Of a stretch of 42,309 nt of DNA, positions 10,372 through 33,654 are shown piece after piece (position 1 is the stretch's first letter; every line of letters starts with the position of its first letter). A program made the translations under genes and the position numbers. The notes under the pieces were generated by a model. The model ran no database searches and was not told where the DNA came from. It saw only the letters and a list, made by a program, of their open reading frames with translations. The stretch comes from Clostridia bacterium (GTDB lineage: Bacteria; Bacillota; Clostridia; Christensenellales; Borkfalkiaceae), in NCBI GenBank assembly GCA_017463425.1, contig JAFTPE010000020.1, forward strand, positions 1 through 42,309, given 5' to 3'.

Positions 10372-10498
10372 GATACGCTCGACTTCGGCTTACGCCTACG
10401 CTCGGTATGACAATTTTACGTAGGGAACAGTCTTGACTGTTCCGAGCCTCAGGCGATTTGCTTTTTTGCGCTGTCATTCTGAGCGTAGCGTGAGAATC
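10372..10498. repeat. Dispersed intergenic repeat cluster (GATACGCTC module, GGAACAGTC hairpin, TGTCATTCTGAG repeat)
   Basis: Three repeat pieces in a gene-free gap: GATACGCTC..GGTATGACA (10372-10412), the 20-nt inverted repeat GGAACAGTCTTGACTGTTCC (10424-10443), and TGTCATTCTGAGCG..GAATC (10472-10498). The first two recur, in the same order and spacing class, at 33461-33654. The third belongs to a sequence type (TGTCATTCTGAGCG...) common as REP-like repeats in many gut bacteria. No ORF is present in 10296-10592. Confidence 0.75.
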
Positions 10499-26498: not shown

Positions 26499-26569
26499 AA
26501 AAAACCGAGCCGATAGGGGAATGCCTGTCGGCTCGCGTTTTTGTATATCGGAACAGTCTTGACTGTTCC
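26499..26569. terminator. Bidirectional terminator plus GGAACAGTC hairpin, first copy of a direct repeat
   Basis: CGAGCCGATAGG (26506-26517) pairs with CCTGTCGGCTCG (26524-26535), then CGTTTTTG. The inverted repeat GGAACAGTCTTGACTGTTCC follows at 26550-26569. Bases 26499-26554 recur without change at 27260-27315. The unit closes the MATE transcript and marks the left edge of cassette A. Confidence 0.85.
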
Positions 26570-26590
26570 GCAATTTTTCTATAAAAACCA

Positions 26591-26619
26591 TTGACAAGGA
26601 TAGAAAAAAGTGGTAAAAT
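26591..26619 (+). promoter_or_regulatory. Promoter of cassette A
   Basis: TTGACA (26591-26596), 17-bp spacer, TAAAAT (26614-26619). Predicted start at about 26626, the first base of the long closing helix of the RNA. The preceding 21 nt and hairpin match those before the cassette B promoter. Confidence 0.85.
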
Positions 26620-26624
26620 AAAAA

Positions 26625-26740
26625 TGCGACATAAATTTAATATTTTTAACAAGTCGAAATATACTTCTTTGGTAGAAGTGTATCTTTTCGCGTAATAAAA
26701 ATTTTCGATTTGTAAAGATATTTTTTAAATTTGTGTCGCA
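26625..26740 (+). ncRNA. Cassette A structured leader RNA with UUGGUAG hairpin
   Basis: TGCGACATAAATTTAA (26625-26640) pairs with TTAAATTTGTGTCGCA (26725-26740): 16 pairs, one G-U. Inside, 26651-26660 pairs with 26701-26711, and ATATACTTCT (26659-26668) pairs with AGAAGTGTAT (26674-26683) to present UUGGU(AG). The sequence TATCTTTTCGC follows the hairpin. The same features recur in the minus-strand RNA at 33405-33243. It is followed by a terminator, with GGCAT (26754-26758) able to compete for the GTGCC of that terminator. The layout is riboswitch-like, or that of an RNA antitoxin or regulatory RNA; I do not recognise a described class. Confidence 0.6.
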
Positions 26741-26767
26741 GCAAAGCGAGAGGGGCATTTTTACAGG

Positions 26768-26797
26768 TGCCGTTTCGCAAGAGGCGGCATTTTTTTT
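26768..26797 (+). terminator. Attenuator-like terminator before the cassette A gene
   Basis: TGCCGTTTC (26768-26776), GCAA tetraloop, GAGGCGGCA (26781-26789), then T8. It lies between the promoter and the gene at 26823, so the gene depends on read-through. Confidence 0.85.
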
Positions 26798-26822
26798 ATG
26801 CGAAAAACGAAAGAGGTATGAT

Positions 26823-27260
26823 ATGTGGAACAGAAAAAGAAAAATGGCGAATGAACGCCGAAAAAAATTGCTGACTTGGATAGAAGAAATATTGGAACTG
26901 AGCCGAAAATGGCGCGAATGGGAAATACAGGAAGAATGCGCGCGTCAAATGATTGAGTGCAAAGGCTGGTCGAAAGAGATGAAAGCGAGTTGGGTGAAAG
27001 CGAGGGAGAGATTGGGGATAAAAGACCGAAGGGAAGAAATAAAAAAGGAGAAAGCGGAATATTACGTGGAATTAAAAATCAAGGTCAGAGAAAAGGAAGA
27101 AAAAAACGACGAGATGTATGCGCGGTTACCAAAATCGATAAAACGTACGGTGAAAGACAAAGAGGGGTTTATGCAAGGAATCATGCGGAAGAAAACGTTG
27201 AACCGATTGAAAATCACGTATTTGAAAAACAAAGCAATTTTATTGTTTCAAGAAGAATGA
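26823..27260 (+). CDS. Hypothetical basic helical protein (cassette A cargo)
   Basis: A 145-residue, strongly basic protein I do not recognise. It is rich in Lys, Arg, Glu and Trp, predicted helical throughout, with long charged helices (RREEIKKEKAEYYVELKIKVREKEEK) and a basic C-terminal half (LPKSIKRTVKDK; RKKTLNRLKITYLKNK) suited to nucleic-acid contact. No membrane or signal segment, no obvious catalytic motif. Start ATG 26823 after AGAGGT; an earlier in-frame codon at 26733 would lie inside the RNA and terminator. The stop codon touches the second copy of the flanking direct repeat. Its expression is gated by the upstream terminator. Confidence 0.75.
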   Translation: MWNRKRKMANERRKKLLTWIEEILELSRKWREWEIQEECARQMIECKGWSKEMKASWVKARERLGIKDRREEIKKEKAEYYVELKIKVREKEEKNDEMYARLPKSIKRTVKDKEGFMQGIMRKKTLNRLKITYLKNKAILLFQEE

Positions 27261-27330
27261 AAAAACCGAGCCGATAGGGGAATGCCTGTCGGCTCGCGTT
27301 TTTGTATATCGGAACGGTCAAGACCGTTCC
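27260..27330. terminator. Second copy of the terminator-hairpin direct repeat
   Basis: Bases 27260-27315 are identical to 26499-26554. The hairpin at 27311-27330 reads GGAACGGTCAAGACCGTTCC, so relative to the first copy one pair changed on both arms (A-T to G-C) and the centre is inverted. It terminates the cassette A gene. Confidence 0.85.
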
Positions 27331-27361
27331 ATACGGTGGGTGTTATCCGCCAAACTTGTAA

Positions 27362-27381
27362 GGAAAAGTCTTTACTTTTCC
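27362..27381. repeat. Divergent copy of the GGAACAGTC hairpin
   Basis: GGAAAAGTCTTTACTTTTCC differs from GGAACAGTCTTGACTGTTCC by paired changes that keep the stem. Confidence 0.6.
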
Positions 27382-27390
27382 CACAAACGC

Positions 27391-27420
27391 AAAAAAGCTG
27401 ATGGATACCATCAGCTTTTT
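27391..27420 (-). terminator. rpmB terminator (bidirectional)
   Basis: AAAAAGCTGATGG (27392-27404) and CCATCAGCTTTTT (27408-27420) form a long perfect stem with A/T tracts on both sides. It serves rpmB on the minus strand and shields against the cassette A transcript. Confidence 0.85.
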
Positions 27421-27443
27421 AAGCGTACTTATAAAACGGGCGA

Positions 27444-27635
27444 TTATTCAGCGTCCGCTTTTTTAAGGGTTCTGATACATCTTGCGCAAACGTATCCGTT
27501 CATTTCCTTTCCGTCTTCTACGTAAGAAATTTTTTGAACATTCGCCTTAAAGGTTCTTCTCGTCTTACGGTTAGAGTGGCTGACGTTGTTTCCCGTCGTT
27601 TGACCTTTACCGCAAACATTACATACTCTGGACAT
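27444..27635 (-). CDS. rpmB: 50S ribosomal protein L28
   Basis: A 63-residue L28. The N-terminus has the zinc-binding CxxC of the Cys-containing form ([10 protein letters not shown]) and the second pair at [28 protein letters not shown] is the L28 signature. L28 is needed for late 50S assembly. Start ATG 27635 with GGAGGT upstream on the minus strand. As in many Firmicutes it diverges from an Asp23-family gene and FakA. Confidence 0.96.
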
Positions 27636-27766
27636 ATTGATACCTCCGTTTTTTGGGATTATTTTTACCGTAGTAAAACCATAAAAATGGCGCTGAAATT
27701 TTATCCCAAATGCGTTTTGGGAAAAACAAGCATAAATAATATATCATTTCTCGAAAGAAAAAGCAA
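27636..27766 (-). promoter_or_regulatory. rpmB promoter and structured leader
   Basis: On the minus strand: TTGCTT (27766-27761), 17-bp spacer, TATATT (27743-27738). The leader of about 95 nt contains two hairpins: CCCAAA/TTTGGG (27705-27721) and TTTTAC/GTAAAA (27666-27681). The leader could take part in ribosomal-protein feedback control, but no known motif is recognised. Confidence 0.6.
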
Positions 27767-27825
27767 TCAAAAACGGGTCAAAAAAAGCAAAAAATAAAAA
27801 AATTTAGAAAATTTTGAAAAAGTGC

Positions 27826-27854
27826 TTGCCAAAAACGCGGAAATAGTGTACAAT
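27826..27854 (+). promoter_or_regulatory. Promoter of the Asp23-family gene
   Basis: TTGCCA (27826-27831), 17-bp spacer, TACAAT (27849-27854), about 15 bases before the GGAG of the gene. Confidence 0.75.
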
Positions 27855-27876
27855 AGGAAAGTAGTTGGAGAAAATT

Positions 27877-28227
27877 ATGTCAGTTAATACGAATAACGCA
27901 TACGGCAAAATTTCCATATCCGATTTGGCGATTGCCAAAGTTGCGTCGAATACCGCGCTCGAATCCTACGGGATAGTAGAGATGGTTTCGCGCCGTTTTA
28001 CCGACAGTCTTTCTTTGCTCTTTAGAAAAGAGAGCGGAGGGAAAGGGATTAAAGTTACTACGTCGGGAAACAGAATTTACGTGGACGTATACGTCATTAT
28101 TAAATACGGCGTATCTATTGGCGCGGTTGCCGAATCTTTGAAAGAGGCAATCAAGTACAAAGTAGAAGGGTTTACGGGTATGATCGTAGACACCGTCAAC
28201 GTCAACGTTATCGGAGTTAAATTGTAA
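27877..28227 (+). CDS. Asp23/Gls24-family envelope stress protein
   Basis: A 116-residue Asp23-family (DUF322) protein: YGKISISDLAIAKVASNTALESYGIVEM is the usual start, and RIYVDVYVIIKYGVSIGAVAESLKEAIKYKVE and VDTVNVNVIGVKL complete the domain. Relatives (YloU) sit next to the DAK-domain kinase FakA, as here. Staphylococcal Asp23 is a membrane-anchored envelope-stress protein; the exact role of the short clostridial form is unclear. I choose ATG 27877, with GGAG 7 nt upstream, instead of the in-frame TTG at 27865. A terminator follows it. Confidence 0.93.
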   Translation: MSVNTNNAYGKISISDLAIAKVASNTALESYGIVEMVSRRFTDSLSLLFRKESGGKGIKVTTSGNRIYVDVYVIIKYGVSIGAVAESLKEAIKYKVEGFTGMIVDTVNVNVIGVKL

Positions 28228-28233
28228 AATTTC

Positions 28234-28266
28234 AGCGCAGCGAGTGAATTCGATTTGCGCTTTTTT
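28234..28266 (+). terminator. Terminator after the Asp23-family gene
   Basis: AGCGCA (28234-28239) with TGCGCT (28256-28261) and T5; the loop contains GAATTC. Partial read-through to fakA is possible. Confidence 0.65.
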
Positions 28267-28373
28267 GCGTACGCGCTCTTGCGGATACGTTTCGTCTTAT
28301 ATAATGTATATTATAATGAAAGACAATCCAAGGGCAAACAGTTAAATCTTAGAAAATAAGGAGCATTCTTATA

Positions 28374-30020
28374 ATGCATAAAACGATAAACAGCAACGAG
28401 TTTCGTAAAATGATACTCGTTGGCGCGAAACAGCTCGAACTCAATCGGGCGAAAGTGGATGCGTTGAACGTGTTCCCCGTTCCCGACGGAGATACGGGTA
28501 CGAATATGTCGCTTACGATGCAATCCTGCATAAAAGAAATGACGGCGTGTCAATCCAACGCTTTTTCCGAGGTGTGCAACAGCATTTCCAAGGGCGCGTT
28601 AAAAGGAGCGAGAGGCAATTCGGGCGTTATCCTGTCCCAGATTTTAAAAGGGATTTGTTCGGTTGTTGGAAAACAGGAAAAAGAAGTGGATACCAAGACG
28701 TTTGCAAAGGCGTTAGAGGCAGGCACGAAAGTTGCTTACAGCGCGGTATCCGTGCCGAAAGAAGGTACGATTCTCACCGTTATTCGTATGATGAGCGAAC
28801 ACGCGGTGAAAGTTGCGGCGAAGAAAAAGACGTTTGAAGAATTTTTCAAGGACGTTATCGAAGAAGGGGATAGAGCGCTAGCGTTGACCCCGACGTTGTT
28901 ACCCGTATTGAAAAAAGCGGGCGTTGTCGATTCAGGCGGCGTGGGGCTGATGACGATTATCAAAGGCTTTGCGGCAGAATTGACGGGCGAAGAAATCGCC
29001 GAGAGCGTAACAGAGGCGGACGTTTCGCAAGGAAGCGAATCGGAATTTGGCGACAATTCGTCGATTATTGCAATGGAATTGAGCGAAATTCAATACGCGT
29101 ACTGTACCGAATTTTTCATTATCAATATGAAAAAGAGTACGACGCTTTCCGCGATTGATAGATTGAGAGAAAAATTGATGGCGATTGGCGACAGCGTCAT
29201 TTGTATCGGGGATTTGGAATTGGTAAAGGTACACGTGCATACCAACCAACCTGGCAAAGCGTTGACGTACGCTTTGGAATTGGGCGAATTGGAAAGACCC
29301 AAAATCGAAAATATGTTGGAACAAAACCGTCAACTTCGTGCTCAGTTAGAGGCGGAGAAGAAAGAGATGGGTATGCTTGCGATTTGTACGGGCGCAGGGC
29401 TTTCCGAGATTTTCAAGGATTTGTCGGTGGATCACATTATTGAGGGTGGACAGACAATGAACCCTTCCGCAAGTGATATCGCAGACGCGGCAAAGAGAAT
29501 CAACGCGGAACACATTTTCGTATTCCCCAACAATAAAAATATTATTTTGGCGGCGGAACAGGCGAAAAATCTTGTGGAAAACAAGACGATTCACGTAATT
29601 CCGACGAAGAACGTACCGCAAGGGTTTGCGGCGGCGTTGGAATTCAATCCCGAAATGAGCGCGGTGGAAAACAAAACGAATATGATTCACGCCCTTGACA
29701 ACGTGAAAGTGGGGCAAGTAACGTATGCGGTGCGTAACACTTCTTTAAACGGATTCTCGATTAAAGAGGGGGATATCATAGGTTTGGACGATAAAAAGAT
29801 TTTGGCGAAATCGCAATCGTTGGAAGAAACTATGATGAAACTGATTGCGCGTATGAAAGAGGACTTCCACCAAGTGATTACGTTGTATTACGGCGAGGAC
29901 GTGAAAGAGGAAGAAGCGGAAGCGTTGTGCGCGGCGATTGCGGAAAAATATCCCGATTGCGACGTGGATTTCCACAACGGCGGTCAGTCGGTGTACTATT
30001 ATATTATGTCTTTGGAATAA
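28374..30020 (+). CDS. fakA: Fatty acid kinase catalytic subunit FakA (DAK2/DhaL-type kinase)
   Basis: A 548-residue protein: N-terminal DhaL-like ATP-binding domain with NVFPVPDGDTGTNMS (metal-binding Asp residues) and GARGNSGVILSQIL, a middle domain, and a C-terminal EDD/DegV-like domain (VFPNNKNIILAAEQA; NVFPQGFAA-like region). Family members (YloV/FakA) phosphorylate fatty acids held by DegV-type FakB proteins, feeding acyl-phosphate to phospholipid synthesis. A DegV protein is encoded at 36200. AAGGAG lies 12 nt upstream of the ATG. Its neighbour Asp23 and the downstream recG follow the common Firmicutes order, interrupted here by the DUF559 element. Confidence 0.94.
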   Translation: MHKTINSNEFRKMILVGAKQLELNRAKVDALNVFPVPDGDTGTNMSLTMQSCIKEMTACQSNAFSEVCNSISKGALKGARGNSGVILSQILKGICSVVGKQEKEVDTKTFAKALEAGTKVAYSAVSVPKEGTILTVIRMMSEHAVKVAAKKKTFEEFFKDVIEEGDRALALTPTLLPVLKKAGVVDSGGVGLMTIIKGFAAELTGEEIAESVTEADVSQGSESEFGDNSSIIAMELSEIQYAYCTEFFIINMKKSTTLSAIDRLREKLMAIGDSVICIGDLELVKVHVHTNQPGKALTYALELGELERPKIENMLEQNRQLRAQLEAEKKEMGMLAICTGAGLSEIFKDLSVDHIIEGGQTMNPSASDIADAAKRINAEHIFVFPNNKNIILAAEQAKNLVENKTIHVIPTKNVPQGFAAALEFNPEMSAVENKTNMIHALDNVKVGQVTYAVRNTSLNGFSIKEGDIIGLDDKKILAKSQSLEETMMKLIARMKEDFHQVITLYYGEDVKEEEAEALCAAIAEKYPDCDVDFHNGGQSVYYYIMSLE

Positions 30021-30066
30021 TCGTATTTTTATCCAAAAAAATTTGTATAATTATACAAAAAAACGA

Positions 30067-30100
30067 AAGCGGGACGGGCGGCGGCGCACATTCCGCTTTT
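30067..30100 (+). terminator. fakA terminator
   Basis: AAGCGG (30067-30072) and CCGCTT (30093-30098) with a 20-nt GC-rich loop and T6. Confidence 0.6.
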
Positions 30101-30118
30101 TTGTATTTTTTCAATCTT

Positions 30119-30575
30119 GGCTTCTCCTTGAGGAGAAGCTGGCGAGCAAAGCGAGTCTGATGAGGTGTATAAAATGAACAAAACCAATAATTCAAAATTG
30201 ACCTCTAATGCCCAATATCTCAGAAAAAATATGACAGAAGAGGAACGAAAATTATGGTACACTTTTTTAAAAAAGTTGCCTTTAACGGTGCATAGACAAA
30301 AGGTAATAAAAAGGTATATCGTAGATTTTTATATAGCGGAAGCCAAACTTGTGATTGAATTAGACGGTTTGCAACATTATGAGAGTGAAAAACAAATAAA
30401 GGATAAAGAAAGAGATTTATATTTAATGAATGAGGGATATACTATACTTCGTTATACTAACTTAGATATAAAAAGGAAATATAAAGATGTTTGCGAAGAT
30501 ATTTGGAAACATATTGAAGAAAATGTTTCCACCTCATCCGTCATTTTATGACACCTTCTCCTCAAGGAGAAGGCA
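30119..30575. mobile_element. DUF559 gene enclosed by inverted repeats (putative non-autonomous element)
   Basis: Left end: hairpin CTTCTCCTTGAGGAGAAG (30121-30138), variable middle, GATGAGGTG (30159-30167). Right end in inverse order: CACCTCATC (30530-30538), variable middle, CCTTCTCCTCAAGGAGAAGG (30554-30573). The ends are about 45 bp and enclose a single AT-rich gene whose ribosome site and stop lie in the repeats. No transposase is present. The unit sits between fakA and recG, genes that are normally adjacent. Confidence 0.7.
30174..30551 (+). CDS. DUF559 endonuclease-like protein (PD-(D/E)XK/Vsr-like)
   Basis: A 125-residue DUF559 protein. The nuclease-like core is visible: MTEEERKLWYTFLKK helix, RQKVIKRYIVDFYI (Asp), KLVIELDG (Glu-x-Asp, metal site), QHYES, ERDLYLMNEGYTILRYTN. 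The fold is related to very-short-patch-repair and restriction endonucleases; no activity is firmly assigned to stand-alone DUF559 proteins that I know of. It is clearly more AT-rich than neighbouring genes. The SD-like GAGGTG before ATG 30174 is the inner end of the left inverted repeat, and the last residues (STSSVIL) are encoded by the right repeat, so the gene and its repeats are one unit. Confidence 0.88.
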   Translation: MNKTNNSKLTSNAQYLRKNMTEEERKLWYTFLKKLPLTVHRQKVIKRYIVDFYIAEAKLVIELDGLQHYESEKQIKDKERDLYLMNEGYTILRYTNLDIKRKYKDVCEDIWKHIEENVSTSSVIL

Positions 30576-30638
30576 AGGAATCGACGCAATTTTTATAAGT
30601 TTATAAATATGTAAAAGTATCTGTAAATAGGTGATTGT

Positions 30639-32645
30639 ATGAAATTGTCGGCGTTGAAATCTATCGGCGAAAAGAGAGAAAAAGATTTTCAAAAATTAGG
30701 CGTTTACGACGTGGAAGACCTCGTGCGGTTTTATCCGCGCGCGTATCTTGATTTAACCGAGCGCGCGTCGCTGCGGAACGCATACCACAACGATATGGCG
30801 CTCGTTGCCTGCGAAGTTACACGTCTTGCGCCCGTCAATTACGGCAGTCGGCATAAAATGGTGCGCGCATTTTGTTCGCAAGACGGATTTCCGTTTACCG
30901 TCGTTTGGTTTAATCAACCGTACGTCGCGCAAAAATTGAAACCTGGCGAATACCTGTTTTACGGCAGAGTGCAAAACAAATTTGGGCAAGTGTCTATGGT
31001 CAATCCCACTTTTGAACCGCTGGATAAAAATTATCGATTGAAAGGCATTGTGCCTGTATATCCGTTAAAGGGCAACCTTTCGCAAAAAGTGGTGCGCGCG
31101 GCGGTGAAAGAGGCGTTGCAAAAAGTGGACTTATCTGGCGCGATACCTTGGCAAATTACGAAAAAATACGATTTGCCGTCTTTGGAGAGGGCTTATTACG
31201 ATATTCACAATCCACCCGATAAAAACGCCAAAGACCTTGCAAGCGAGCGCGTGGCGTTAGAGGAATATTTCGTTTTGATTTCCGCATTTAAAATTATCAA
31301 GGGCGGCAAAGAGGACGCGCGTGTGCATAATTATACGGTTTCGGCAAGTGAAGTGAAAACGTTTTCCACTCGATTTGGTTTTGAATTTACCGACGGACAA
31401 AAACGCGCGGTGAATGATATTTACGAAAATCTGTACGCACCGACCCGAATGAACCGTTTGGTGCAAGGGGACGTGGGCAGCGGTAAAACCGCCGTCGCGC
31501 TGTGCGGTATTTTTATGGCGGTAAAGAGTGGATTTACAGCGGCGTATCTTTCTCCTACCGAAGTGCTTGCCGCGCAAAATTACGCCGTTTTAAAACGATA
31601 TTTTCCCGAATACAGAGTGGGATATTTGGCAGGGGGAATGACGGCGAAAGAAAAACGCGAGATGAAAGAACGTCTTAAAAGCGGAGAAATTGATATTCTT
31701 TGCGGTACGCATGCGATTTTCCAAGCGGACGTGGAGATTCCGAGGCTTTCGTTTATCGTTTGCGACGAACAACACCGATTCGGTGTGGCGCAACGCAACG
31801 CTTTGGCGGAAAAGGGCGAGGGCGCGGATATGTTGGTTATGAGCGCGACGCCGATTCCGCGTACGTTATCTTTGATTTTTTACGGGGATTTGGACGTTAC
31901 GTCGATTACGGACAAGCCCAAGGCAAGACAGGAAATTTCCACCAGCATCATTCCCGATTCCAAATACGAGGATATGTTGGAATACGTAAAAAGGGAAACG
32001 TCGGCGGGCAAGCAAGCGTATTTCGTTTGCGCGAAAATCGAGGACGACGAGGAGGGTTCGATTATCAGCGTTACCGAATTGTACGAGGAATTGAAAGGCA
32101 GGTTGCCTACGGTGCGGTTTGCTTTGTTGCACGGAAAAATGAAAGAAAAAGAAAAAGCGGAAGTGATGACGGCGTTTAAAAATCACGAATACGATTGTCT
32201 TGTATCCACGACGGTAATCGAGGTGGGCGTGGACGTGCCGAATGCAACCATTATGATTATTTACAACGCCGAACGATTTGGTTTGTCGCAATTACACCAA
32301 CTGCGTGGGCGTGTCGGGCGAGGCAAAGAAAAGAGTTATTGTTTCCTGTTAATGGGGGCGGACAGCGATACGGCAAGAGAGCGTTTGACGACGTTGAAAA
32401 ACAATACCGACGGGTTTAAGATTGCGGAAAAGGATTTGGAAATGCGCGGCAGCGGCGATTTCTTCGGGACGCGGCAATCGGGTAAAATGCTGTCGGATAT
32501 TAAAAATTTGCGGTATCCAACCAGCGTGATATTTGCGGCGAAAAAATTATCCGACGAGGCTTTTGAGGGACGATTCGACAATGAAAAATTGCGCGAGGCG
32601 GCGCTGAAAAAATACGAGAGCCTTAAAGACGTCGTATTGAATTGA
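30639..32645 (+). CDS. recG: ATP-dependent DNA helicase RecG
   Basis: A 668-residue branch-migration helicase that remodels stalled forks and Holliday junctions. The N-terminal wedge domain (RFYPRAYLDLTERASL; VVWFNQPYVAQKLKPGEYLFYGRV) precedes Walker A GDVGSGKTAVA, DEQHRFGVAQR, SATPIPRTLS, STTVIEVGVDVPNATIM and QLHQLRGRVGRG; the C-terminal part carries the TRG-like GDFFGTRQSG region. Length is typical (about 680). AGGTG precedes the ATG. It ends at a bidirectional terminator. Confidence 0.97.
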   Translation: MKLSALKSIGEKREKDFQKLGVYDVEDLVRFYPRAYLDLTERASLRNAYHNDMALVACEVTRLAPVNYGSRHKMVRAFCSQDGFPFTVVWFNQPYVAQKLKPGEYLFYGRVQNKFGQVSMVNPTFEPLDKNYRLKGIVPVYPLKGNLSQKVVRAAVKEALQKVDLSGAIPWQITKKYDLPSLERAYYDIHNPPDKNAKDLASERVALEEYFVLISAFKIIKGGKEDARVHNYTVSASEVKTFSTRFGFEFTDGQKRAVNDIYENLYAPTRMNRLVQGDVGSGKTAVALCGIFMAVKSGFTAAYLSPTEVLAAQNYAVLKRYFPEYRVGYLAGGMTAKEKREMKERLKSGEIDILCGTHAIFQADVEIPRLSFIVCDEQHRFGVAQRNALAEKGEGADMLVMSATPIPRTLSLIFYGDLDVTSITDKPKARQEISTSIIPDSKYEDMLEYVKRETSAGKQAYFVCAKIEDDEEGSIISVTELYEELKGRLPTVRFALLHGKMKEKEKAEVMTAFKNHEYDCLVSTTVIEVGVDVPNATIMIIYNAERFGLSQLHQLRGRVGRGKEKSYCFLLMGADSDTARERLTTLKNNTDGFKIAEKDLEMRGSGDFFGTRQSGKMLSDIKNLRYPTSVIFAAKKLSDEAFEGRFDNEKLREAALKKYESLKDVVLN

Positions 32646-32668
32646 CCGTTCCGCACAGTGATTTTACC

Positions 32669-32703
32669 AACAAAAAACACCCGCTGAGGGTGCTTTTTTG
32701 TTA
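32669..32703. terminator. Bidirectional terminator between recG and the minus-strand cassette B gene
   Basis: AACAAAAAACACCC (32669-32682), loop GCTGA, GGGTGCTTTTTTGTT (32688-32702). A and T tracts on both sides suit convergent transcripts. Confidence 0.9.
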
Positions 32704-32719
32704 TGTAGAAAAGGTTTGC

Positions 32720-33079
32720 TTAAATGCGTATCTCTCTTTTCACCTCGGGGTTGGCTTTCCAACACCGATACAATTCGTCCACAAGCGGTTTGTATTGTTC
32801 TACAGATTCGCTTCTGGTTTCATTGAAAGTATCCGCAAGTGTGTCAATCAAATCGTTTAGCTGTCCGTCAGATATTCCAGTGAGTTTTAATTCTTTTTTC
32901 ACGTACGCCGCAAGCGTACTGCGGTGATATTCAAACATTTTTTTATAAATCTCGTCATCCACTAACAATTCGCTGTGTAAACGCAGATAGCGATGTACCC
33001 AAGTAAACATATCTTTTCTAACTTGGGCATTCAAACGAGGGGGCGCTTTTTTTGTTTTTCTTTTTTCTTTTGTTTTCAT
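32720..33079 (-). CDS. Hypothetical basic protein (cassette B cargo)
   Basis: A 119-residue protein I do not recognise. It opens with a Lys/Arg-rich stretch (MKTKEKRKTKKAPPRLN), continues with amphipathic helices (VRKDMFTWVHRYLRLHSELL; IYKKMFEYHRSTLAAYVKKELK) and ends with LVDELYRCWKANPEVKREI. No membrane, signal or known catalytic motif. It shows no clear homology by eye to the cassette A protein, though both are small, basic and helical. AGGTAGGAAAGT on the minus strand precedes the ATG. No promoter is evident directly upstream; two terminators and a structured RNA separate it from the promoter at 33439-33411. Confidence 0.7.
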   Translation of the reverse strand: MKTKEKRKTKKAPPRLNAQVRKDMFTWVHRYLRLHSELLVDDEIYKKMFEYHRSTLAAYVKKELKLTGISDGQLNDLIDTLADTFNETRSESVEQYKPLVDELYRCWKANPEVKREIRI

Positions 33080-33115
33080 ACTTTCCTACCTTTGCAAATT
33101 GATAATTTTTTAAAA

Positions 33116-33160
33116 TAAAAGAACCGTTTCAAACAAACGTATTTGTTTTTTAACGGCTCT
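33116..33160 (-). terminator. Second terminator-like hairpin before the cassette B gene
   Basis: On the plus strand AAAAGAACCGTT (33118-33129) and AACGGCTCTTTT (33153-33164 region) form a 12-bp stem with one wobble; on the minus strand a T-rich stretch follows. Confidence 0.6.
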
Positions 33161-33180
33161 TTTGTTTTTCATTTAAAAAT

Positions 33181-33212
33181 AAAAAATGCCGCATATCTTA
33201 CGATACACGGCA
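33181..33212 (-). terminator. Attenuator-like terminator of the cassette B RNA
   Basis: Read on the minus strand: TGCCG (33212-33208), inner TATC-GTAA-GATA (GNRA-type loop), CGGCA (33191-33187), then T6. The TATCGTAA part can instead pair with an upstream TTACGATA (33238-33231), an 8-bp competing helix. The 5-bp base of the stem equals that of the cassette A terminator. Confidence 0.75.
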
Positions 33213-33242
33213 AATGCAGAATATACCTAATATCGTAAAATT

Positions 33243-33405
33243 TGCTACAATTTCTTTTTTACTCTATAATATATTACAACCACGGATTAAAAAAGCGATA
33301 AGAGATATAATCCTACCAAGATTATATCCGCGGATAAAAAATATATAATAGAGTAGAAAAAAATAGTTGCTTTTTTACGTAAAAAAGCTAAAAGAAATTG
33401 TAGCA
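33243..33405 (-). ncRNA. Cassette B structured leader RNA with UUGGUAG hairpin
   Basis: Transcribed on the minus strand from about 33406. Closing helix: TGCTACAATTTCTTTT with AAAAGAAATTGTAGCA (plus coordinates 33243-33258 and 33390-33405), 16 perfect pairs. Inside: the 20-nt palindrome GCTTTTTTACGTAAAAAAGC (33369-33388), a second helix 33260-33275/33340-33355 (15 of 16 pairs), CCGCGG/CCGTGG, and hairpin GATATAATC-UUGGUAG-GATTATATC (33328-33304) followed by UCUUAUCGC. Hairpin loop, the downstream UAUCU..UCGC, closing helix and promoter context are shared with the RNA at 26625-26740. Confidence 0.6.
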
Positions 33406-33410
33406 TCTTT

Positions 33411-33439
33411 ATTATAAGCAATTTTTTATAAAAAGTCAA
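33411..33439 (-). promoter_or_regulatory. Promoter of cassette B
   Basis: Minus strand: TTGACT (33439-33434), 17-bp spacer, TATAAT (33416-33411). The predicted start coincides with the first base of the closing helix at 33405. The 21-nt linker to the hairpin at 33461-33480 is nearly the same as in cassette A. Confidence 0.85.
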
Positions 33440-33460
33440 CGGTTTTTGTGGAAAAATTGC

Positions 33461-33654
33461 GGAACAGTCAAGACTGTTCCCTATAAAGAGTGGCAGTCCT
33501 GTCATACCGAGCGAAATGAACGTAGTGAATGCAGTCGAGCGTATCCCATAAATAAAACGCATATATTTATTTTGAGATACACTCCACGCGGTTGCTACGC
33601 CACCTTGGTCGGTATGACAATCCGATTAATCGTAGGGAAAGCCAAGACCATTCC
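33461..33654. repeat. Compound inverted intergenic repeat (two head-to-head modules)
   Basis: Left hairpin GGAACAGTCAAGACTGTTCC (33461-33480), then TGTCATACC..GAGCGTATC (33500-33545), then, inverted, GATACACTC..GGTATGACA (33576-33619) and a decayed hairpin (33635-33654). Each half equals the unit at 10372-10443 in opposite orientation. No ORF of interest lies inside. Confidence 0.75.

Follow-up and report, generated by a model that had tools for sequence, protein, structure and literature searches.

The window analyzed here is a stretch of 42,309 nucleotides (nt), contig JAFTPE010000020.1 of the assembly GCA_017463425.1 (Clostridia bacterium, Borkfalkiaceae). It harbors two cassettes, A on the plus strand and B on the minus strand; in each, a promoter is followed by a structured RNA with an intrinsic terminator at its end and then by a gene (Table 1). 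An earlier note, made from the sequence alone, had described these two copies; both are present, but the genome holds ten. The cassettes belong to a large and apparently undescribed family of RNA leaders of gut Clostridia. In these RNAs, five segments (A to E) can pair in alternative ways, each pairing excluding its neighbor in the chain: A:B (the hairpin P3), B:C, C:D (the antiterminator), and D:E (the terminator).

Table 1. Positions of the features of cassettes A and B in the window. Parts of minus-strand features are given in reading direction; R1 is the covariance model described in the text.
Feature	Position	Strand	Parts and remarks
Promoter, cassette A	26591..26619	+	TTGACA 26591-26596, 17 nt, TAAAAT 26614-26619; sequence reading
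Leader RNA and terminator T run, cassette A	26625..26797	+	R1 match, fold z
P1 closing helix, cassette A	26626..26739	+	26626-26640 with 26725-26739
P2 helix, cassette A	26643..26718	+	26643-26658 (one base unpaired) with 26704-26718
P3 hairpin (A:B), cassette A	26659..26683	+	26659-26668 with 26674-26683
Segment B, cassette A	26672..26691	+	End of loop, P3 3′ strand, and following UUUUCGC; partner A or C
Segment C (GCGAGAGGGGCAUUUUUAC), cassette A	26746..26764	+	Antiterminator 5′ strand and loop; partner B or D
Terminator (D:E), cassette A	26767..26790	+	26767-26776 with 26781-26790; D (26767-26778) alternatively with C
Gene, cassette A	26823..27260	+	145 residues; one of a related gene family behind such RNAs in its own genome
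Promoter, cassette B	33411..33439	-	TTGACT 33439-33434, 17 nt, TATAAT 33416-33411; sequence reading
Leader RNA (long type-2 form) with terminator, cassette B	33181..33405	-	
P1, cassette B	33244..33404	-	33404-33390 with 33258-33244
P3 (A:B), cassette B	33303..33329	-	33329-33320 with 33312-33303
B:C, cassette B	33216..33316	-	33316-33296 with 33235-33216; -18.6 kcal/mol, 0/2000 shuffles equal
Antiterminator and terminator, cassette B	33187..33238	-	C:D 33238-33224 with 33212-33198; D:E 33212-33202 with 33197-33187
Second terminator-like hairpin with T run, between RNA and gene, cassette B	33112..33160	-	Sequence reading
Gene, cassette B	32720..33079	-	119 residues
Dispersed palindrome GGAACAGTCTTGACTGTTCC	26550..26569; also 10424-10443, 27311-27330, 33461-33480	.	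Repeat search

The layout given in the earlier note was confirmed, with a few corrections. The gap-free alignment from an upstream hairpin to the start of the RNA holds, with a spacing of 55 nt in both cassettes as read from the sequence, and the two regions include a 46-nt inverted repeat (I1, 26550-26595 and 33435-33480, 93% complementary). Both RNAs have the long closing helix, P1 (15 uninterrupted base pairs), the UUGGUAG hairpin followed by UAUCU..UCGC, and a terminator with a UGCCG/CGGCA base, a GCAA or GUAA loop, and a T run. The region 3′ of the closing helix contains the terminator, as noted, and in addition an antiterminator strand. P1 sets in with the first bases of the transcript, P2 and P3 are nested inside it, and in cassette A the UUGGUAG motif lies in the P3 loop and adjoining it. 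The folding energy is far below that of shuffled sequences for the RNAs of cassette A (z -6.8) and cassette B (z -10.0; 0/200 shuffles each). Other long type-2 copies have, by eye, a second hairpin and T run ahead of the gene comparable to that of cassette B.

The earlier note had made its proposal depend on further hits, on covariation in the helices, and on the absence of a known Rfam family. Further matches turned out to be numerous in the genus, the order, and the class, and covariation is strong. Rfam 15 (4227 families) gave no match at the gathering score on the RNA in 41 sources (the window, 20 diverse loci, and 20 class-level loci), and the Rfam T-box model had no match in the same sources. 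At an E-value threshold, only sub-gathering Rfam matches touch the RNA in the window region and in locus L200. No description of this RNA was found in the abstracts and passages searched in the literature, including those of PMC8040213 and PMC11109978. The former gives, in its supplements, candidate RNAs of human microbiomes by the thousand, and this motif may be among them without a name.

A search for UUGGUAG..UAUCU..UCGC identified four copies in the window's own genome; this genome is one of 16, out of 61, with a match, among which the hit at L019 looks like chance. Fifteen type-1 RNAs from this search make up the covariance model R1. The model matched 48 of 57 genomes of the genus (E 0.1; by eye, G001 and G072 have chance-like matches alone), 71 of 396 genomes of the order, in 22 of 142 genera and 14 families (E 0.001), and 46 of 391 genomes of the class, in 30 of 223 genera (E 1e-4). 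In the phylum sample, the only one of 398 genomes with a match (E 1e-4) was the window's own, and the 14 listed genomes of the class that this sample includes were all without one; the result doubles as a false-positive control. The order, class, and phylum searches scored fewer candidates per genome than the genus search. Since R1 was built from type-1 RNAs, other forms are under-detected and the counts are lower bounds in that respect; a few low-scoring rows are chance matches, and the E-values are rough. Cassette A, whose sequence is part of the training set, was matched at 26625-26795 (165 bits, E 3e-35). The ten copies of the window's own genome correspond to nine rows of the genus search plus cassette B, whose weak match (33355-33181, 23.3 bits, E 0.0025 in a small search) is absent from those rows. 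At least 13 pairs of copies are in tandem, as judged by coordinates.

The data are metagenome-assembled genomes, many of them incomplete; the window's own has 1,339,774 bases in 48 contigs and is 82% complete. The named records with the type-1 motif are metagenome-assembled genomes titled Clostridia or Clostridiales bacterium, and the gut of roe deer, sheep, or goat is named for 14 of the 21 type-1 motif stretches. In two loci from different genomes (L007 and L008), both contigs stop directly after the P1 3′ strand (TGTAGCAAC), which suggests that the sequence beyond is repeated in those communities.

To assess the pairings, we compared the duplex energy of each RNA's own strands with that of swapped partners, using 10,000 permutations. 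The first set comprised 51 non-redundant RNAs, less than 75% identical, from an alignment of 100 of the 177 loci; the truncated RNA of L074 was excluded from the tests of P2, P3, B:C, and summed energies. All pairings had energies that no permutation reached: z was -21.7 for P1, -26.4 for P2, -12.5 for P3, -13.9 for C:D, -14.3 for D:E, and -10.4 for B:C. Control segments unexpected to pair gave -1.0 and +1.6 in the test of P1, C:D, and D:E, and in the B:C test A:C gave -1.9 (336/10,000) and the later joining region with C +2.2. The class search supplied a second set of 26 RNAs, none of them shared with the first; L218 and L224 come from the window's own family and the rest are more distant. 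Here, z was -14.2 for P1, -8.3 for C:D, and -10.3 for D:E, and C tested against the whole region enclosed by P1 gave -7.6 (0/10,000), with the best duplexes at B. B:C and C:D lie outside the fitted and search model, so their signal is not circular. In the class-level alignment A4 (34 rows, including three antisense matches that were dropped from the swap test of the second set), 29 of 34 pairs changed on both sides, with 240 two-sided cells against a shuffled mean of 72 (0/500) and 92.9% paired cells against 69.7% after shuffling, a count biased in favor of the structure because A4 was fitted to it.

Hence, the 5′ leader contains a conserved structured domain, as in riboswitches, and an expression platform with mutually exclusive folds, in which C:D and D:E share segment D and both covary. 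The best-conserved parts of the RNA include the loop and flank of P3, and an AUA follows the 5′ strand of P1 in 43 of 51 and 25 of 26 RNAs. Simple kissing between loops through UUGGUAG gave a z of -1.7 in the duplex test, with energies inflated by failed duplexes. In contrast, U or C in loop L3 covaries with A or G in the C segment (67/14 and 2/10; Fisher p 1e-5; based on the 97 RNAs whose loop was readable, which are partly related and include 4 unclassified ones), which we attribute to the longer B:C pairing. In cassette A, 19 of the 20 bases of B are complementary to C (-21.4 kcal/mol, 0/2000 shuffles equal). The sequences of B and C diverge widely among clades yet remain complementary, so we take B:C to be selected.

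In the chain of pairings, A competes with C for B, B with D for C, and C with E for D. The pairings C:D and D:E have -15.4 and -15.8 kcal/mol in cassette A and -15.5 and -17.2 kcal/mol in cassette B. When the 3′ arm of the terminator is removed, the RNAs of both cassettes fold into C:D, and the full RNAs fold into D:E. The RNA is thus very probably a 5′ leader that acts in cis as a transcription attenuator of the next gene, by exchange between A:B with C:D and B:C with D:E. Transcription would start at the first bases of P1, the helix around P2 and P3. If A:B and C:D formed, the polymerase would read through and the gene would be expressed; if B:C and D:E formed, transcription would terminate. 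B:C would form as a pseudoknot, with P1 and P2 left intact. Termination would be the default state, as the calculated energies favor the OFF pairings: their sum is below that of the ON pairings in every one of the 51 RNAs. A signal that stabilizes the domain from P1 to P3 would then turn the gene on; a small molecule is the likeliest candidate, followed by a protein. Tandem copies could sharpen the response.

The position of promoters and genes bears on this reading. Of 145 usable copies, 121 have a loose promoter pattern directly ahead of the RNA, where shuffles give an expectation of 3.45. We collected 171 instances (140 rows of the genus search, 30 chosen rows of the order search, and cassette B), and in 142 of them an open reading frame (ORF) preceded by a Shine-Dalgarno (SD) sequence lies within 400 nt, at a median distance of 27 nt. 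In 105 of the 171, the start codon is at most 40 nt from the terminator. This leaves no space for a second promoter and, as the promoter is upstream of the RNA, the gene must be read through the terminator. The same count makes it very improbable that the RNA is a free-standing small RNA that ends at the terminator, next to a gene that is there by chance or by hitch-hiking. Such an RNA would be bracketed by a promoter and a strong terminator, as is the case here, and one copy (L017) has, by eye, no sense gene, but the covariation of C:D would serve no purpose in a simple terminated small RNA. We saw no leader peptide by eye in cassettes A and B, where no systematic search for one was made.

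Several observations weigh against reading the RNA as an attenuator. The energy sums omit the cost of the pseudoknot, as B:C crosses P1 and P2, so that the default OFF state is a rough estimate. One control of the swap test, the first P2 bases against a segment on the P1 side, reached a z of -3.9. P1, P3, and D:E were located using a model that contains them, and the permutations ignore phylogeny, an effect that the controls calibrate without removing. In 29 of the 171 instances there is no SD-preceded ORF within 400 nt, although some of these are contig ends or chance matches, and by eye L017 has only a convergent gene. Finally, an additional pseudoknot that we had ourselves proposed by eye for type 1, between ACAAC after P3 and GUUGU before the 3′ strand of P1, was rejected: its swap z was -0.5 in the narrow and -2.7 in the broad version, against -3.9 for the control.

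The earlier note had described a conserved RNA with different cargo and considered a riboswitch-like leader. The wide occurrence, the covariation, and the gene right after the terminator support both. To characterize the cargo, we used 117 downstream proteins of at least 60 residues whose gene lies within 110 nt, omitting the low-scoring, chance-like L145, L147, L148, and L149; removing equal starts left 115 and removing the near-copies L075 and L166 left 113 for Pfam. Among the 117, 61 have a lipobox-like start by a simple pattern. The 113 include 44 with LRR_5 (BspA-type), 28 with LRR_8, 10 with Flg_new, 7 with YspA SLOG, 6 with collagen repeats, 6 with zinc ribbons, and 2 with TIR, in families that overlap. 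As a control, LRR_5 was found in 2 of 100 other ORFs of the same loci, out of 162 that were mechanically chosen. The downstream proteins of 27 class-level loci were read by eye only. The RNAs probably switch the next gene on or off, and this gene often encodes a surface protein. The small basic gene of variable sequence given in the earlier note fits the window's own genome and is not family-wide, since about half of the downstream proteins look exported.

In the window's own genome, eight of the ten copies lie ahead of one related gene family by BLAST, including the gene of cassette A; its weakest member (L097) has an E-value of 4e-4 over 37 residues. The remaining two copies precede a lipoprotein-like gene (L079) and the gene of cassette B. 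The proteins of cassettes A and B are basic, as noted earlier (lysine plus arginine against aspartate plus glutamate, 42/26 and 25/19), and homology between them has no support (hhalign probability 0.1%, with a thin profile), in line with the earlier impression. Seven loci, spread over six other genomes of the genus, encode homologues of the cassette B protein. An R1 match lies upstream of the homologue at four of them, with a SLOG-type gene in between at three of the four. At L233:840-1800 and on the minus strand of L235 (98-968), the B family is encoded beside a SLOG-type protein with CCFIGHR, and the two likely form a two-gene operon. Other type-2 copies (L115, L116, L117, and L137) lie ahead of small proteins with an RGAP motif, and that of L117 has a weak match to the Rho N-terminal domain (PF07498, E 0.08), below the cut-off.

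These data leave practically no room for a type III toxin-antitoxin-like unit, which the earlier note had listed. A terminated structured RNA ahead of a small gene is what such a unit would look like. However, neither cassette RNA has a tandem repeat array at score 30, and neither the A nor the B protein matched Pfam above the cut-off, hence no endoribonuclease toxin, whereas the cargo consists largely of leucine-rich repeat (LRR) proteins (44 of the 113). We rejected this reading on the missing repeats and the missing toxin family.

If the RNA is an attenuator, its signal can mainly be read in two ways, other causes aside. One is narrower than attenuation as such: a new class of riboswitch that binds a metabolite or a signal and acts as a genetic ON switch. 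We give this just under an even chance. The conserved AUA motif adjoining the helices is consistent with it, and so are the several copies per genome, the tandem pairs, and the varied genes with a common theme, as in signal-sensing riboswitches; the controlled genes are, however, not metabolic. The RNAs resemble transcriptional riboswitches in having a structured domain in the 5′ leader, an exclusive choice between antiterminator and terminator, a ribosome binding site and start codon just downstream, and tandem copies. They differ in that the RNA has no Rfam class in the scanned sources, the regulated genes often encode surface proteins, and the P3 domain is linked to the antiterminator by one more competing pairing, B:C. 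In the cobalamin riboswitch, a loop of the sensing domain touches the expression platform (L5-L13 loop-loop control). The contact is alike here, but B:C extends into the 3′ strand of P3 and would displace this hairpin, so it is not purely between loops.

Clostridia also carry multiple c-di-GMP riboswitches per genome, some of them in tandem, ahead of genes for surface proteins. In this, these riboswitches are similar to the present RNA, which differs by having no Rfam match. Cyclic di-GMP itself was rejected as the general ligand and is unlikely in this role, as a GGDEF match was found in 13 of 30 RNA-bearing genomes and in none of the other 17 (12 of 28 with a match among near-complete genomes). 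A different RNA, Gut-1 (RF01706), was found at L200:1196-1272, 228 nt upstream of a class-level family member, and is separate from this family in sequence and structure.

The other way to read the signal is through an RNA-binding antiterminator protein that would grip P3 and its loop, whose conservation is consistent with this. Terminators with competing hairpins under protein control are an established kind, but this RNA is longer than the known sites of antiterminator proteins, and we consider such a protein rather unlikely. Like trp-type attenuators, in which a chain of segments has alternative pairings, the RNA has segments that pair alternatively, but they are five and its leader starts in a closing helix.

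A broader picture, which we offer as tentative and do not favor over its negation, is a class-wide riboswitch-like system of gut Clostridia in which one common signal, perhaps from the gut or host, sets by a three-step strand-exchange cascade which surface LRR, collagen-like, and SLOG or TIR proteins are made. If true, the cell surface would be under global control by RNA, through a ligand and a kind of platform that are both new; in this platform, a strand of the sensor hairpin itself would capture the antiterminator. A large cis-regulatory RNA family such as this one matters because the genes behind it shape the contact of uncultured gut bacteria with their environment; its covariation yields an explicit, testable switching scheme, and its regulon points to a signal.

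The earlier note had also included the upstream hairpin (GGAACAGTCTTGACTGTTCC) in the unit and raised the possibility of a mobile regulatory RNA. With at most one mismatch, the palindrome GGAACRGTC(AA/TT)GACYGTTCC occurs at 16 places in the window's own genome and directly precedes an RNA copy at only three of these. Being dispersed and mostly away from the RNA copies, it is not part of the unit, and we discarded it as a component. With the hairpin untied to the RNA, and with no match for the type-1 queries in phages, plasmids, and viral contigs, mobility of the RNA was not borne out. Some copies lie at the ends of RNA-gene cassettes, and the palindrome resembles a dispersed repeat of the REP (repetitive extragenic palindromic) type.

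Cassette A is flanked by a direct repeat of 71 nt (26499-26569 and 27260-27330, 94% identical), which consists of the terminator of the upstream transporter-like gene and the palindrome on both sides. It looks as if cassette A had been inserted or duplicated there. Elsewhere in the window, at 30116-30577, an ORF of 128 residues lies between inverted repeats of 26 nt (92% complementary), like a small mobile element; its product looks like an endonuclease of the DUF559/Vsr type.

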